Origin: Gemmataceae bacterium
Lineage (GTDB): Bacteria > Planctomycetota > Planctomycetia > Gemmatales > Gemmataceae
DNA: 38,715 nucleotides
Assembly: GCA_009692005.1 (NCBI GenBank)
Contig: SHZZ01000036.1
Span: 1 to 38,715 of the forward strand
Direction of reading: 5' to 3'
In this document: in pieces, positions 2,113 through 17,024 of the stretch
Layout: the number at the start of each line of letters is the position of its first letter
Numbering within the stretch: position 1 is the stretch's first letter
Made by a program: the position numbers and the translations under genes
Notes under the pieces: generated by a model
Told to the model about the DNA's origin: nothing
Databases searched by the model: none
Seen by the model: the letters and a program-made list of their open reading frames with translations, nothing else

Positions 2113-2185
<73 letters not shown>

Positions 2186-11371: not shown

Positions 11372-12751
11372 TCACCCCGGGTTTTTTTCTTTTTCCGCTT
11401 CCTGGCGAATGTGGTTCAACACCCGCATGTGAATCCGGTGGATTATTTCATCGGAAAGGGCGCCCCAGTAACTGGCGGGCCACATGCGATTGAGATACCA
11501 GGTGGTGCCTTCCAGCCGGGTCCGGCCGTTCCCCAAATCCACCAGGCGGAACTCGCCTTTCTTGCTGACCAGGTAATGGTCCAAATGTGGCGGGTGAATG
11601 GCATACGGGCTCCATTCCTCCATCGGGCAGGGTTGTTCCTTGACATCGAAGGCCAGGCGCTTGGGCTTATCCCACACAGTAATGGGTTCAACAAAGGGGC
11701 CGGTGGAAAAGACGCAATGGCGAACCGCACCGGGGCCTTCGCCACGAATTTCCGCCCGAATGGGGTAGGCCATGCCAACGCGAAACATCCATTCCCGGTT
11801 ATCCCCGGGTATTTCCGAAAAAGAAACCACATGATTCCAAACCACGCTGGGCGGCTGCTGGATTTCGATCCAGCTCACGACTTCCCTCACGGGCGGTTCT
11901 TCCTGCAAGATGGATTCCATGCCGATGAACAAGGGCAAGCCGGGAATGTAAAGGGCCAGGAAGGCGCCGTAAGCGCCCTGCAGCCAGGGGCGCGCCTGCA
12001 CCATGTAACCAAAGCAACTGCCGAGAAAGGCCAGCAAGGTCCCGATCGGTAAAAACATGATCAGGCAAATGGCGCCTTCAATCCCCACAAGGAATAGGGA
12101 ACAAAAAGTGAGCAGGGCGCAGGACATGCCAAAGCCAAGGCATTCGCCAAACCCGCGCTGCCTTTTCCAGCCATAAAGGAGTACAGCGAAAAAACCCTGG
12201 GCAAAAGGAGCTCCCAGGAACAGGCCAAAGCCATAGTTGCCCAGGAACTGCGCGGAAAAAAGCACAACCCCCACCGTGGCAATGACCGAGAGAATGGAAA
12301 TCCCCAAGGTGGTGGCAAAGGGCTGGCTCGTTTGCGGGTGAAGTAGCGGGCTCTGGCCTTCTTGGCCTGCATCGCCTTTTTTTTCTGGCGCCAGGCACAA
12401 TACCCCAATGAAAGCGAAATTGATAACCGGCAAAAAGAAGAGCGCCACTAATCCCAGAGGCAACCCCGCCGAGCGCAACCGCCGAAAAGTCATCCAGGTG
12501 CCCACTGCGATAAAGGGCAGGGCGGTCCCCATCATAACCAGGCCAGATTGCCTGGTTTGCGGGTCCATGTCCCAGAGGTTTATCTTCTCAAAGGCTGGCC
12601 AGATCAAATAACTCAAGGGCGACCATGGTATTTGTAAAAGGAAATGAGCCACCATCATGTCGAGGAAATATTTGACGCCAAAGAGGAGAAATCCGGTTAG
12701 GGCGTAGTTGCCCCGGTTCACCGGGCTTAACAGGATTTGCTGAAATTTCAT
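11372..12751 (-). CDS. Multi-pass membrane protein with C-terminal SRPBCC-like domain
   Basis: The roughly 459-residue product starts at the ATG at 12749-12751, preceded 8 bases upstream by GAGGG; an upstream in-frame ATG at 12778 is possible. The first 280 residues or so hold about seven hydrophobic segments (for example YALTGFLLFGVKYFLDMM, ALPFIAVGTWMTF, LGLVALFFLPVINFAFIGVL). The last 170 residues are soluble and begin VVSWIEIQQPPSVVWNHVVSF, like the START/polyketide-cyclase (SRPBCC) fold. That fold forms a hydrophobic ligand pocket. The N terminus (NRGNYALTGFLLFG) faintly recalls DUF805 proteins. A membrane part fused to a lipid-pocket-like domain suggests lipid handling, but this is a guess. 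Confidence 0.7.
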   Translation of the reverse strand: MKFQQILLSPVNRGNYALTGFLLFGVKYFLDMMVAHFLLQIPWSPLSYLIWPAFEKINLWDMDPQTRQSGLVMMGTALPFIAVGTWMTFRRLRSAGLPLGLVALFFLPVINFAFIGVLCLAPEKKGDAGQEGQSPLLHPQTSQPFATTLGISILSVIATVGVVLFSAQFLGNYGFGLFLGAPFAQGFFAVLLYGWKRQRGFGECLGFGMSCALLTFCSLFLVGIEGAICLIMFLPIGTLLAFLGSCFGYMVQARPWLQGAYGAFLALYIPGLPLFIGMESILQEEPPVREVVSWIEIQQPPSVVWNHVVSFSEIPGDNREWMFRVGMAYPIRAEIRGEGPGAVRHCVFSTGPFVEPITVWDKPKRLAFDVKEQPCPMEEWSPYAIHPPHLDHYLVSKKGEFRLVDLGNGRTRLEGTTWYLNRMWPASYWGALSDEIIHRIHMRVLNHIRQEAEKEKNPG

Positions 12752-12851
12752 GATTGCGCCCTCAATTGGAATGATCAATCATGATAACCGCTTCCCTTTC
12801 ATCAGGATAACTTGGCTTCGCAGTCATGATTTTTTTTAACGGGACTGGACC

Positions 12852-13262
12852 TTGAACTCCTTCAACCTCACCCCAGCCCATTTTTTCGCAGCAGGCTTGA
12901 ACCTCCGCCTGGCCAAGAAAAAAGTCAATGCCTGGCGATACCGGCTGGTTTGGGCCATAGTAACTCTTTTCCTTTTCACCAAATTTCTGTTCCTTTTCCT
13001 CTTGCCTGGAGAATCGGGCGCCTTTGTCGGTATGGGAACCTGGCACCTTGTTTTGTTTGTTTTCATTTGCGGAGCCTTTATCTCCATCGAAATGGTTTAC
13101 AAAAAAGTGCAGGATTACTTTGTCGATTGCGAGCAAGTTGAGCCCGATTGGATTAAATACTGCATGGTATTGCTGGAAAACAATTTCCCCATATTTCTGA
13201 TACTGCTTACCAGCTTGAGGGAGCCCTTGGGCCATGTCCTGGAGGAAATCCCCCCCCCTTAG
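12852..13262 (+). CDS. N-terminal membrane part of adenylate cyclase, separated by a frameshift
   Basis: This 136-residue frame uses a TTG start with no good ribosome-binding site. It encodes three hydrophobic segments (LVWAIVTLFLFTKFLFLFLL, LVLFVFICGAFISIEMVY, PIFLILLTSL). It ends in a run of nine C as ATC CCC CCC CCT TAG. The downstream frame continues with more membrane helices and the cyclase domain, and would be joined if the run had eight C. I therefore read this as the N-terminal part of one membrane-anchored cyclase gene of about 435 codons covering 12852-14172. Whether the frame break is real, phase-variable or an assembly error is unknown. It may instead be translated as a separate short protein. 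Confidence 0.55.
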   Translation: MNSFNLTPAHFFAAGLNLRLAKKKVNAWRYRLVWAIVTLFLFTKFLFLFLLPGESGAFVGMGTWHLVLFVFICGAFISIEMVYKKVQDYFVDCEQVEPDWIKYCMVLLENNFPIFLILLTSLREPLGHVLEEIPPP

Positions 13263-14172
13263 CCATGCGCCTTTATTGCTCCTTTCCATTCACTACTTGC
13301 GTTTCCGTTTTTGTTTATTCGCGGGGATTGTGATCGGCCTGGAAAGAGGCTTTCTCTTCTGCTGGGCATGGCATACGCCGGGAAGCGGCTTGAGCGGCCA
13401 GCCGCTCGATTATCTTTGGCAAATTGGTAATATCAATGTAACGGCGGTGGTGGCGGGCGGTATTGCCACTCTCACTCGCAATATGATGGAAGCCGCCATC
13501 CGTTTCAGCGACGAAAGAAACCTGGCCAAAGACACTTTTGGCCAGTTTGTGTCGAAGGATGTGGCCGAGAAAATATTACGCAATCGGTTCAGTTTCAGTG
13601 GCGACACAATTCAGGCCGGTGTGCTCTTTTTGGATATTCGCAATTTCATTGCTTACAGCTCGCGAATTTCTCCGGAAGAAACGGTGGCATTTCTCAATCA
13701 GGTCTTTGGTTTTTCTGTCGAGGAGATCGAAAGAGAAGGAGGTGTGGTAAACAAATTCCTGGGAGACGGATTTTTGGCCATTTTCGGGGCGCCCTTGCCA
13801 CATGCGGAACCGGTGGCCGCCTCACTGCGGGCTTCGCAAAAGATTTTTCTCGCCCTGGAAGAATTCAACCGGAAAAAAAGCGGCAGCCCGATTGCCCTCG
13901 GCATCGGCATCCATTACGGCCCGATGGTGGCGGGGGTCATCGGCACGAAAGAACGCCGGGAATACACCGTCATTGGCGACACGGTGAACATCGCCTCCCG
14001 CATCGAGGAGATGAATAAGGTGTTTGGTTCGCGGTTGCTAATTTCCTCCCAGGCGGTGGAAACCCTCCGCCCAGGGGAAAAAGCCCTGCTTTCACCCCTG
14101 CCCCCAACCCATATCAAGGGAAGAAGCGACAGCCTCATTGTTTATCGGGAGGCGCAAGTCCCCTCGGCTTGA
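13234..14172 (+). CDS. Class III adenylate/guanylate cyclase, catalytic part
   Basis: The 312-residue frame contains one or two membrane helices (residues 10-40 and about 68-80), a short linker with FGQFVSKDVAEKIL typical just before cyclase domains, and a complete class III catalytic domain. The first metal-binding Asp is in VLFLDIRNF, the second in NKFLGDGFLAIFGAP, and the C-terminal catalytic stretch is YTVIGDTVNIASRIEEM. The Lys in VNKFLGDG fits ATP preference, so cAMP is the likely product. The 13234 ATG may not be the natural start: the frame probably continues from the upstream membrane ORF across the C9 tract. Its stop codon abuts the stop of the convergent aldehyde dehydrogenase gene with no gap. 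Confidence 0.85.
   Translation: MSWRKSPPLSHAPLLLLSIHYLRFRFCLFAGIVIGLERGFLFCWAWHTPGSGLSGQPLDYLWQIGNINVTAVVAGGIATLTRNMMEAAIRFSDERNLAKDTFGQFVSKDVAEKILRNRFSFSGDTIQAGVLFLDIRNFIAYSSRISPEETVAFLNQVFGFSVEEIEREGGVVNKFLGDGFLAIFGAPLPHAEPVAASLRASQKIFLALEEFNRKKSGSPIALGIGIHYGPMVAGVIGTKERREYTVIGDTVNIASRIEEMNKVFGSRLLISSQAVETLRPGEKALLSPLPPTHIKGRSDSLIVYREAQVPSA
13250..13258. repeat. Run of nine C at the frame break in the cyclase gene
   Basis: The plus strand has nine consecutive C. Upstream the frame ends in TAG two bases after the run; downstream the cyclase frame is shifted by one base. Homopolymers of this length are slippage-prone during replication and also error-prone in sequencing. Confidence 0.9.
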
Positions 14173-15654
14173 TCAACCGAGGTTCACCGTGACGGTTTTC
14201 AACTCGGTGTAATGTTCCAAAGCCGTTTCCCCGTTTTCTCTTCCCTGGCCCGACATCTTGAAGCCGCCAAACGGCGTGGTGGTGTCCACGACATGGTAGC
14301 AGTTCACCCAGATGGTGCCGGCCTTGATTGCCCGAGCGTAGTTATGCGCCTTGTCGATATTCTTGGTCCAAATCGCGGCCGCCAGGCCGTAGTTGGTGTT
14401 GTTCGCCCGTTCGATCACTTCGCCCATGTCTTTGAAAGGCAGCACGCTCACCACTGGGCCAAAGATCTCATCCTTGGCAATTGTCATGGAATCGCGGACT
14501 CCATCGAAGATGGTCGGTTCGACAAAGTAGCCCTTATTGCCTTTCCTGCTGCCGCCGGTTACCAGGCGGGCGCCCTCCCTCTCGCCGATATCGACATAGC
14601 GCAGGATCTTGTCCAATTGTTCCTGGGAAACTTGCGGGCCCTGCTCGGTGGCCTCATCGAGCGGGTTGCCGACTTTTCTCTGCTTGGCTTTTGCTGCCAG
14701 CCGTTCCACGAATTCCTTGTGAATCTTCTGTTCGATGAAGAGCCTGCTGCCGGCGGTGCAGCACTGGCCGCAGTGGAAGTAAATGGCGTGAAAAGCGCCG
14801 GCCACCGCTTGCTCCATGTCGCAGTCAGCGAAGACGACATTGGGGCTTTTTCCCCCGAGTTCAAAAGTGGTGCGCTTGAGGGTGTCCGCGGCGCGTTTCT
14901 GAATAATTTTGGCGGTTTCCACATGCCCGGTGAAGGCGATTTTGTCGATCCCCGGGTGGACCACCATGGCATCGCCAGTGGTTTCCCCAAAACCATTGAC
15001 CAAGTTAATGACACCTGCGGGAAAGCCAGCCTCGATAGCCAGTTCTCCGACGCGCAGGGCGGTGAGCGGGGTTTGTTCCGCCGGTTTCATCACCACCGTG
15101 TTGCCGCAAGCCAGGGCAGGCCCCCATTTCCACGCCAACATGAACAAAGGAAAGTTCCAAGGAATGATTTGCCCGACCACTCCCACCGGCTGGCGAAGGG
15201 TGTAGGAGAGGAAATTCCCGCGCACGGGCACGGTGCGCCCTTCGATCTTGTCGGCCCAGCCGGCATAATACCGGAGTGAGTTGGCGGTGCCGATGAGGTC
15301 GCCGCGCGAATCGGTAATGGTTTTGCCGCAATTGTAAGTTTCCAGTTGCGCCAGCTCCTCGGCATTGGCGTCAATCAGGTCGGCGAGTTTGAACAAAAGT
15401 TTGCCTCGGTCGGCGGCGTCCATGCGGGCCCAGGGGCCTTTTTCCAAGGCATTGCGCGCGGCCGTCACGGCCAGGTTCACATCCTTGGCACCGGCGGCGC
15501 CCACCTTGGCAATCACTTCGCCCGTGGCCGGGTTGTAGGTTTCAAAAGCGCCGCCCTCGATCGGATCGACCCATTTGTTGTTGATCAACATTTTGGTCTG
15601 CTTGATTTTCGGGGTTTTTTGGGCTTTGACAGCTTTTTTAATCGTGGCGCTCAT
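14173..15654 (-). CDS. NAD(P)-dependent aldehyde dehydrogenase
   Basis: The 493-residue product has the family's standard length and motifs. These are PWNFPL (residues 165-170), [11 protein letters not shown] (190-200), the general-base Glu265 in FELGGKSP, the nucleophile Cys298 in GQCCTAGSR, and [12 protein letters not shown] near residue 400. It oxidises aldehydes to carboxylic acids in the cytoplasm and resembles broad-specificity betaine/retinal-type enzymes. The nucleotide-binding loop usually written FTGSTEVG here reads FTGHVETA, an unusual change in a region that contacts the cofactor. The first 20 residues are a basic Lys/Ala extension. AAGGA precedes the ATG by 5 bases. It is a single gene, divergent from the parvulin gene across 230 bases. 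Confidence 0.93.
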
Positions 15655-15797
15655 GCATGGATTCCTTGCAATCAGATCGGCAATCTAGGCAGCCGAAACA
15701 AGTTAAGGGTAAAGAGCAAAGCTCGGCAAGCATGATAAATCCTCCTTGCCAAGTTGCAAGCCTCTTCTCCTTTTCCTCACCCTTTTTCCTTTCGGCC

Positions 15798-15827
15798 TTG
15801 CTCCCAACTACTTTTTCTCGGTATAGA
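15798..15827 (+). promoter_or_regulatory. Possible sigma-70-type promoter for the parvulin gene
   Basis: TTGCTC at 15798-15803 and TATAGA at 15822-15827 are separated by 18 bases and lie about 60 bases before the ATG at 15885. Both boxes match the consensus only partly, so this is a weak call. Confidence 0.25.
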
Positions 15828-15884
15828 AGCCTTTTGCAGGGCGAAGGAATGCTCTGAAAAAAAAGCGGCAAGGAGGCCACGGCC

Positions 15885-17024
15885 ATGTTGAATATTCCCC
15901 GTATTTCGTTCAAAAGCTGGAAAAACCGCCTCGGGCTCGCCGCCTTTTCCCTCACCCTGGTCTGCACCGCCCTTTTCCTCGCCAGAAAATTACCCCAGAG
16001 CAAAGCCACTGCCCAGGCGTCAGCCCCTAAAGTAGCGCCAAAAGGAAAACCCCAGCCCCCGGCCCCACTGCCAGCTTCCTTTCAGGAAACCGGTAAGAGC
16101 CTCATCACGCCAGTAACCCCTTCCGACTATTCCTCTCGCGTGGTCGCTTACATCTACGAAAATATCCCCATCACCCGGGAAGAATTGGGTGAATATCTGA
16201 TTGCCCGCTACGGTTCGGATCGGCTCGACCTATTGTGCAATAAAAAAATCATCGAAAGCGAATGCCGCAAGTTCGGGATCGAAGTCACCGCGGCCGAGGT
16301 GGAGGATGCACTGGCGGAGGACCTCAAGGGATTGAATGTCGACCGAAAAACCTTCGTCGATAAAGTTTTGCGCAACTATCGCAAAACCCTTTATGAATGG
16401 AAGGAAGATGTCCTGCGGCCGAAGCTGTTGCTGGGCAAGCTGGTTCGTTCCAAGATCAAGGTGACGGAAGAGGATGTGAAGAAAGCCTACGAGGCTTACT
16501 ACGGTGAAAAAGTGGAGTGCCGGGTGATCATGTGGGAAAAGGGCGCCGAGCGAGCCGTTCTGGCCGAGTACCCGAAACTGCGGGATTCCGAAGATGAATT
16601 CAATCGGGCGGCGAAGAATCAGAAAAGCGCTTCGCTGTCAGCCACAGCGGGAAAGATCCGTCCTTTTGGCCGCAGCACCACCGGCAACGATGAATTAGAA
16701 AAGGCGGCTTTTTCTCTGCAACCTGGTGAAGTCAGCTCGGTAATTGGCACCCCGGAGGGCCTGATAGTGGTGAAGTGCGACAAGCGCATTCCCGCCGACA
16801 CCACGGCCAACCTGGAAACCACCCGTGACAAATTAGTGAAGGAGATCATCGAGAAGAAAGTGCAGGTCGAAATTCCTGTGGCCTTTGCGGAAATGAAGAA
16901 AAAAGCCAATGTGAAAATGATTCTGCAAGGGTCGAGTCAGGCGGAAGATTTGAATAAAACCGTGGCGCCGTTGTTGAAGGAAGTTGACGATGCCTTGAAA
17001 TCTGGGTTCAAAGGCGGGAAATAA
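15885..17024 (+). CDS. Membrane-anchored parvulin-type peptidyl-prolyl isomerase (SurA/PpiC-like)
   Basis: The 379 residues start with a basic segment and a hydrophobic anchor (LGLAAFSLTLVCTALFL), then a Pro/Ala-rich linker (about residues 45-70). A helical chaperone-like region (about 80-210) includes ITREELGEYLIARYG. The parvulin core (about 235-310) is recognised by IRPFGRSTTGNDELEKAAF and LQPGEVSSVIGTPEGLIVVKC. Such proteins help fold exported proteins in the periplasm. AAGGAGG lies about 10 bases before the ATG, supporting this start. The substrates are unknown; the nearby exported proteins are natural candidates, but no link is shown by the sequence. Confidence 0.85.
   Translation: MLNIPRISFKSWKNRLGLAAFSLTLVCTALFLARKLPQSKATAQASAPKVAPKGKPQPPAPLPASFQETGKSLITPVTPSDYSSRVVAYIYENIPITREELGEYLIARYGSDRLDLLCNKKIIESECRKFGIEVTAAEVEDALAEDLKGLNVDRKTFVDKVLRNYRKTLYEWKEDVLRPKLLLGKLVRSKIKVTEEDVKKAYEAYYGEKVECRVIMWEKGAERAVLAEYPKLRDSEDEFNRAAKNQKSASLSATAGKIRPFGRSTTGNDELEKAAFSLQPGEVSSVIGTPEGLIVVKCDKRIPADTTANLETTRDKLVKEIIEKKVQVEIPVAFAEMKKKANVKMILQGSSQAEDLNKTVAPLLKEVDDALKSGFKGGK

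Follow-up and report, generated by a model that had tools for sequence, protein, structure and literature searches.

Does a predicted membrane adenylate cyclase gene that changes reading frame at a run of nine C carry a switch, a recoding site or the junction of two separate genes, or is it an ordinary gene altered by a single base? The sequence that we analysed (the window) is one whole contig of 38,715 bases from a genome of 4.19 Mb in 99 contigs, which its named relatives place among the planctomycetes. On its forward strand, the N-terminal part of the cyclase extends from a TTG start at 12852 to a TAG stop at 13260-13262 (136 aa) and holds three likely membrane helices. The C9 run occupies positions 13250-13258, about 30% of the way into the gene and thus mid-gene, and a single T separates it from the stop (CCCCCCCCC-T-TAG). 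At the run, the upstream frame reads CCC CCC CCT TAG, and a +1 shift is needed to continue. The C-terminal part (13259-14172, forward strand) lies in the frame that is +1 relative to the first, is open to a TGA ending at 14172 and carries the remaining membrane helices and a class III catalytic domain; counted from an ATG at 13234, this frame encodes 312 aa. The C9 run is the longest C run of the window and its only C run of at least 8, although runs of this length are not unusual per se, as dinucleotide composition predicts more of them than are seen.

Two signals place the frame change at the run. The hexamer coding score is 0.218 log-odds per codon for the N frame upstream of the run (GC3 of 0.61) and 0.232 for the C frame downstream of it (GC3 of 0.62), and the coding signal passes from one frame to the other at the C9 run. 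Homology confines the change to roughly 30 bases that include the run: the N frame aligns with orthologous proteins up to LREPLG and the C frame aligns from SHAP/EHIP (13261) onward. The homology switch and the coding-signal switch both coincide with the homopolymer.

The C-terminal part matches PF00211, the class III catalytic domain, with E = 2e-23 and a score of 83 bits, well above the 21.9-bit cut-off. Its catalytic motifs, FLDIRNF at 13627, NKFLGDGF at 13750 and YTVIGDTVNIASRIE at 13963, are all intact, and we take them to supply the metal-binding Asp pair, the substrate-specifying Lys and Thr/Asp, and the transition-state Asn and Arg. The same motifs align with 6fht, 2w01 and 5x4t. No Pfam family was matched by the membrane domain, and the structure model of the orthologue is poor (mean pLDDT of 46), so that helices are uncountable from it. 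By sequence, the orthologues nevertheless combine a multi-helix membrane domain and the catalytic domain in one polypeptide, whereas the window copy is interrupted by the frame change. Judging from this domain and motif content, the gene is probably that of a membrane-anchored class III adenylate cyclase with a class IIIb-like motif set, and its product is predicted to synthesize cAMP.

This architecture resembles that of the mycobacterial Cya (Rv1625c type; PDB 7yzi/7yzk), in which an N-terminal multi-helix membrane domain precedes one class III catalytic domain. The orthologue profile matches 7yzi over residues 208-431 (E 2e-23); the comparison differs in that the sequence match misses most of the membrane domain and in that the window copy is frame-broken. 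The best matches of the catalytic part were found to the cyanobacterial CyaC-type class IIIb enzymes (2w01 and the 6fht fusion, E 5e-26 and 2e-28). Unlike the window cyclase, CyaC is not known to have this membrane domain as its anchor.

Comparison with related genomes showed that the two frames derive from a single gene. The C part was matched at 46-49% identity in six genomes that belong to a single sister genus (g20), and the N part was matched in four of these six genomes, in the same open frames as the C part (best N-part match with E 4e-7, in the same single ORFs). In five g20 genomes, one uninterrupted ORF of 457 residues spans both parts, and the sixth copy has no interruption at the site and leaves its contig after 434 residues. 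In BLASTP comparisons with L057, where the gene is syntenic, residues 23-165 correspond to the N part and residues 163-456 to the C part. Because a single g20 ORF covers both pieces and both match the syntenic copy, the two window frames are, on the evidence of these alignments, halves of one ancestral gene whose frame was lost at the C run.

The genomic neighbourhood leads to the same copy in L057. An uncharacterised membrane protein is encoded divergently at 11372-12778 (reverse strand, likely start ATG at 12751) with 55% identity to its L057 counterpart, an aldehyde dehydrogenase is encoded convergently at 14173-15654 (reverse strand, 84% identity), and a putative SurA/PPIC-like protein is encoded at 15885-17024 (forward strand, 70% identity). 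These three shared neighbours make the L057 copy a positional orthologue of the window cyclase. The order of the four-gene block (11372-17024) is kept in L057, and at least its last three genes are also kept in order in L060. The C-terminal part of the orthologue of the divergent membrane protein weakly resembles Polyketide_cyc2. The intergenic stretch that separates the cyclase from the divergent gene holds a T8 run at 12830-12837, shortly before the TTG start; this run is unable to change the frame of the cyclase because an in-frame TAA follows it at any run length. Elsewhere in the window, the sole RNA family match is a tRNA gene at 2113-2185 (reverse strand; Rfam RF00005, 76.9 bits).

The overlap of the two frames might also be taken as an arrangement of two translationally coupled genes, in which a three-helix membrane protein and a cyclase started from the ATG at 13234-13236 would act together as a split cyclase. 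This ATG, a candidate start read from the sequence only, belongs to the C frame, precedes the run and creates an overlap of 29 bases with the upstream frame, and a putative Shine-Dalgarno-like GAGGGAG is found 10 nt upstream of it. However, such an overlap is what a frameshift within a single ancestral gene leaves behind, and the split two-gene form was found in no relative among the g20 copies, which are single ORFs. We rejected the existence of separate conserved genes for the two parts and consider coupled genes to be the least credible of the explanations discussed here. The original prediction had described a 136-codon frame broken at the C9 tract and a shifted downstream frame with an intact class III domain, and had proposed that both belong to one membrane cyclase; these points hold, including in the orthologue comparison that it had suggested, where separate conserved genes could have contradicted it. 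Its only slip concerned the stop codon, which it placed two bases after the run rather than one.

How old is the break? Between the window protein and L057, identity is 27% over the N-terminal membrane region, 34% over the C-terminal membrane region and 52% over the catalytic region, and L056 and L057 share 53%, 52% and 80% in the same regions. The divergence of the N part is roughly proportional to that of the C-terminal membrane part, and the N part has not decayed far beyond this proportion. Since both halves are coding-like and the N part has not decayed disproportionately, the break is recent or absent from the organism. We consider it very probable that the locus is a normal membrane cyclase gene with a non-programmed one-base change in a homopolymer, due either to an error in the consensus or to a recent slippage mutation. 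A change of one base in the length of the C homopolymer would take the assembled sequence off the uninterrupted frame and, if the mutation is real, slippage in the sequenced population would have separated the two halves, membrane and catalytic. A survey of frame transitions in prokaryotes (PMC3711429) explained validated singleton frameshifts as errors of sequencing or as indel mutations. The cyclase resembles these GeneTack singletons in that the frameshift is seen in a single genome and is confirmed by single-gene homologues, which speaks for an error or an indel. The survey was based on complete genomes, whereas the window genome, with its 99 contigs, is probably metagenome-assembled.

The frame might also be restored during expression: if ribosomes shifted by +1, or if transcription slipped, at the C run, the C9 gene could still yield some full-length cyclase. 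Such recoding has some appeal: the shift needed is +1, proline codons precede the stop in the N frame, and CCC-C is a slippery +1 site, with shifting of up to about 1% in E. coli when it adjoins the start codon (PMC4519876). However, the orthologues need no shift and the shift site is not conserved among them, no stable RNA structure was detected downstream of the run (z = +0.82), and unassisted shifting amounts to a low-percent leak. We thus found neither the conserved shift site nor the stimulatory element of a programmed +1 frameshift gene. A small frameshift leak at the C9 run is possible and a programmed event is unlikely; as an account of the locus, recoding has very little probability.

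Phase variation, which the original prediction had put forward, would imply that slipped-strand mispairing at the C run turns the full-length membrane cyclase on and off. As in a homopolymer phase-variable gene, a change in tract length would switch the frame; the frame change falls precisely on the run, and both halves are intact, as they would be in a gene caught in its off phase. The run is also long enough to be variable by the standard of Neisseria, in which tracts of at least 8 often change in length, and this counts against a non-programmed one-base change (PMC5084427). The locus recalls the poly-C/poly-G contingency loci of Neisseria and Campylobacter, as its reading frame breaks at nine consecutive C. 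It departs from them in that the run is not conserved and the gene does not encode a surface product but a cytosolic signalling enzyme, with the run mid-gene. None of the six g20 orthologues (46-49% identity, none closer than 49%) presents a C run at the site, and a conserved tract of variable length was therefore not found among these relatives. An exact search for the C-run site in viral contigs returned nothing.

The rest of the genome shows no sign of a contingency habit, as long C/G runs are depleted. We counted 73 C/G runs of at least 8 in the 4.19 Mb, and a synonymous-codon shuffle predicts ~65 per Mb of coding DNA, such that these runs are about 3-4 times rarer than predicted. This statement rests on genome-wide counts rather than on our run-count sample, which used contigs already holding C9 runs and whose observed number of runs of at least 9 is biased upward. 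CCC is the commonest proline codon of the genome (39%) despite the rarity of long C/G runs. The genome contains 12 C/G runs of at least 9: seven were scored as internal to an open coding frame, one coincides with an ordinary gene end, and the other four, including the C9 at 13250-13258, were unscorable by this rule. Judged by the distance between stops, two or three of the other unscorable runs are also inside long open frames. The C9 run of the cyclase is the only one of the 12 found to break a gene. A C10 run at C2:3292 was considered as another broken gene and rejected, as one gene ends there in the ordinary way and the next follows closely. Among A/T runs, an A10 at C31:100699 appears just after a TGA stop and ahead of another frame, and two runs of nine (L182 and L184, both at position 1501) have flanks that both scored as coding in one shared frame, interrupted by a stop; these two could be gene ends or broken genes.

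Mismatch repair also bears on phase variation, as the genome encodes MutS and MutL. The presence of these proteins keeps slippage rates low. Contingency loci thus differ from the window cyclase in this regard as well, since its genome combines mismatch repair genes with a depletion of long runs. Taken with the absence of the run from the orthologues and with no second run found to break a gene, these observations lend no support to a phase-variable switch, which is improbable, and we infer that the change at the C9 run is not an evolved switch. Among the alternatives that the original prediction had listed, sequencing error and true decay fare better than phase variation, while ribosomal frameshifting is disfavoured by its unconserved site and the value of z = +0.82.

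The one-base change itself could have arisen in the data or in the cell. We compared frame jumps at homopolymers and at random sites over 0.84 Mb of the genome: jumps were found at 1/131 scored A/T and G/C runs of 7-9 and at 54/4925 random sites. Broad inaccuracy of the assembly at homopolymers is not supported as an explanation, as runs of 7-9 show no excess of frame jumps, in a test that includes only a handful of scorable runs as long as C9. The apparent accuracy of the other homopolymers in the sampled part of the genome makes a miscall at the C9 run less likely. An error in the consensus or in the reads has a little less than an even chance of being the cause, and a real recent mutation at the run follows at a somewhat lower probability that is nearly even with it.

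The locus calls for caution: where a frame breaks at a homopolymer and the orthologues are intact single genes, an error or a chance indel is the first explanation to consider. It is unlikely that a planctomycete switches a membrane adenylate cyclase by replication slippage, which would generate heritable cAMP heterogeneity in a free-living bacterium. If variation of the tract length were shown, this gene would be a rare example, among bacteria that are not pathogens, of second-messenger synthesis under phase variation.
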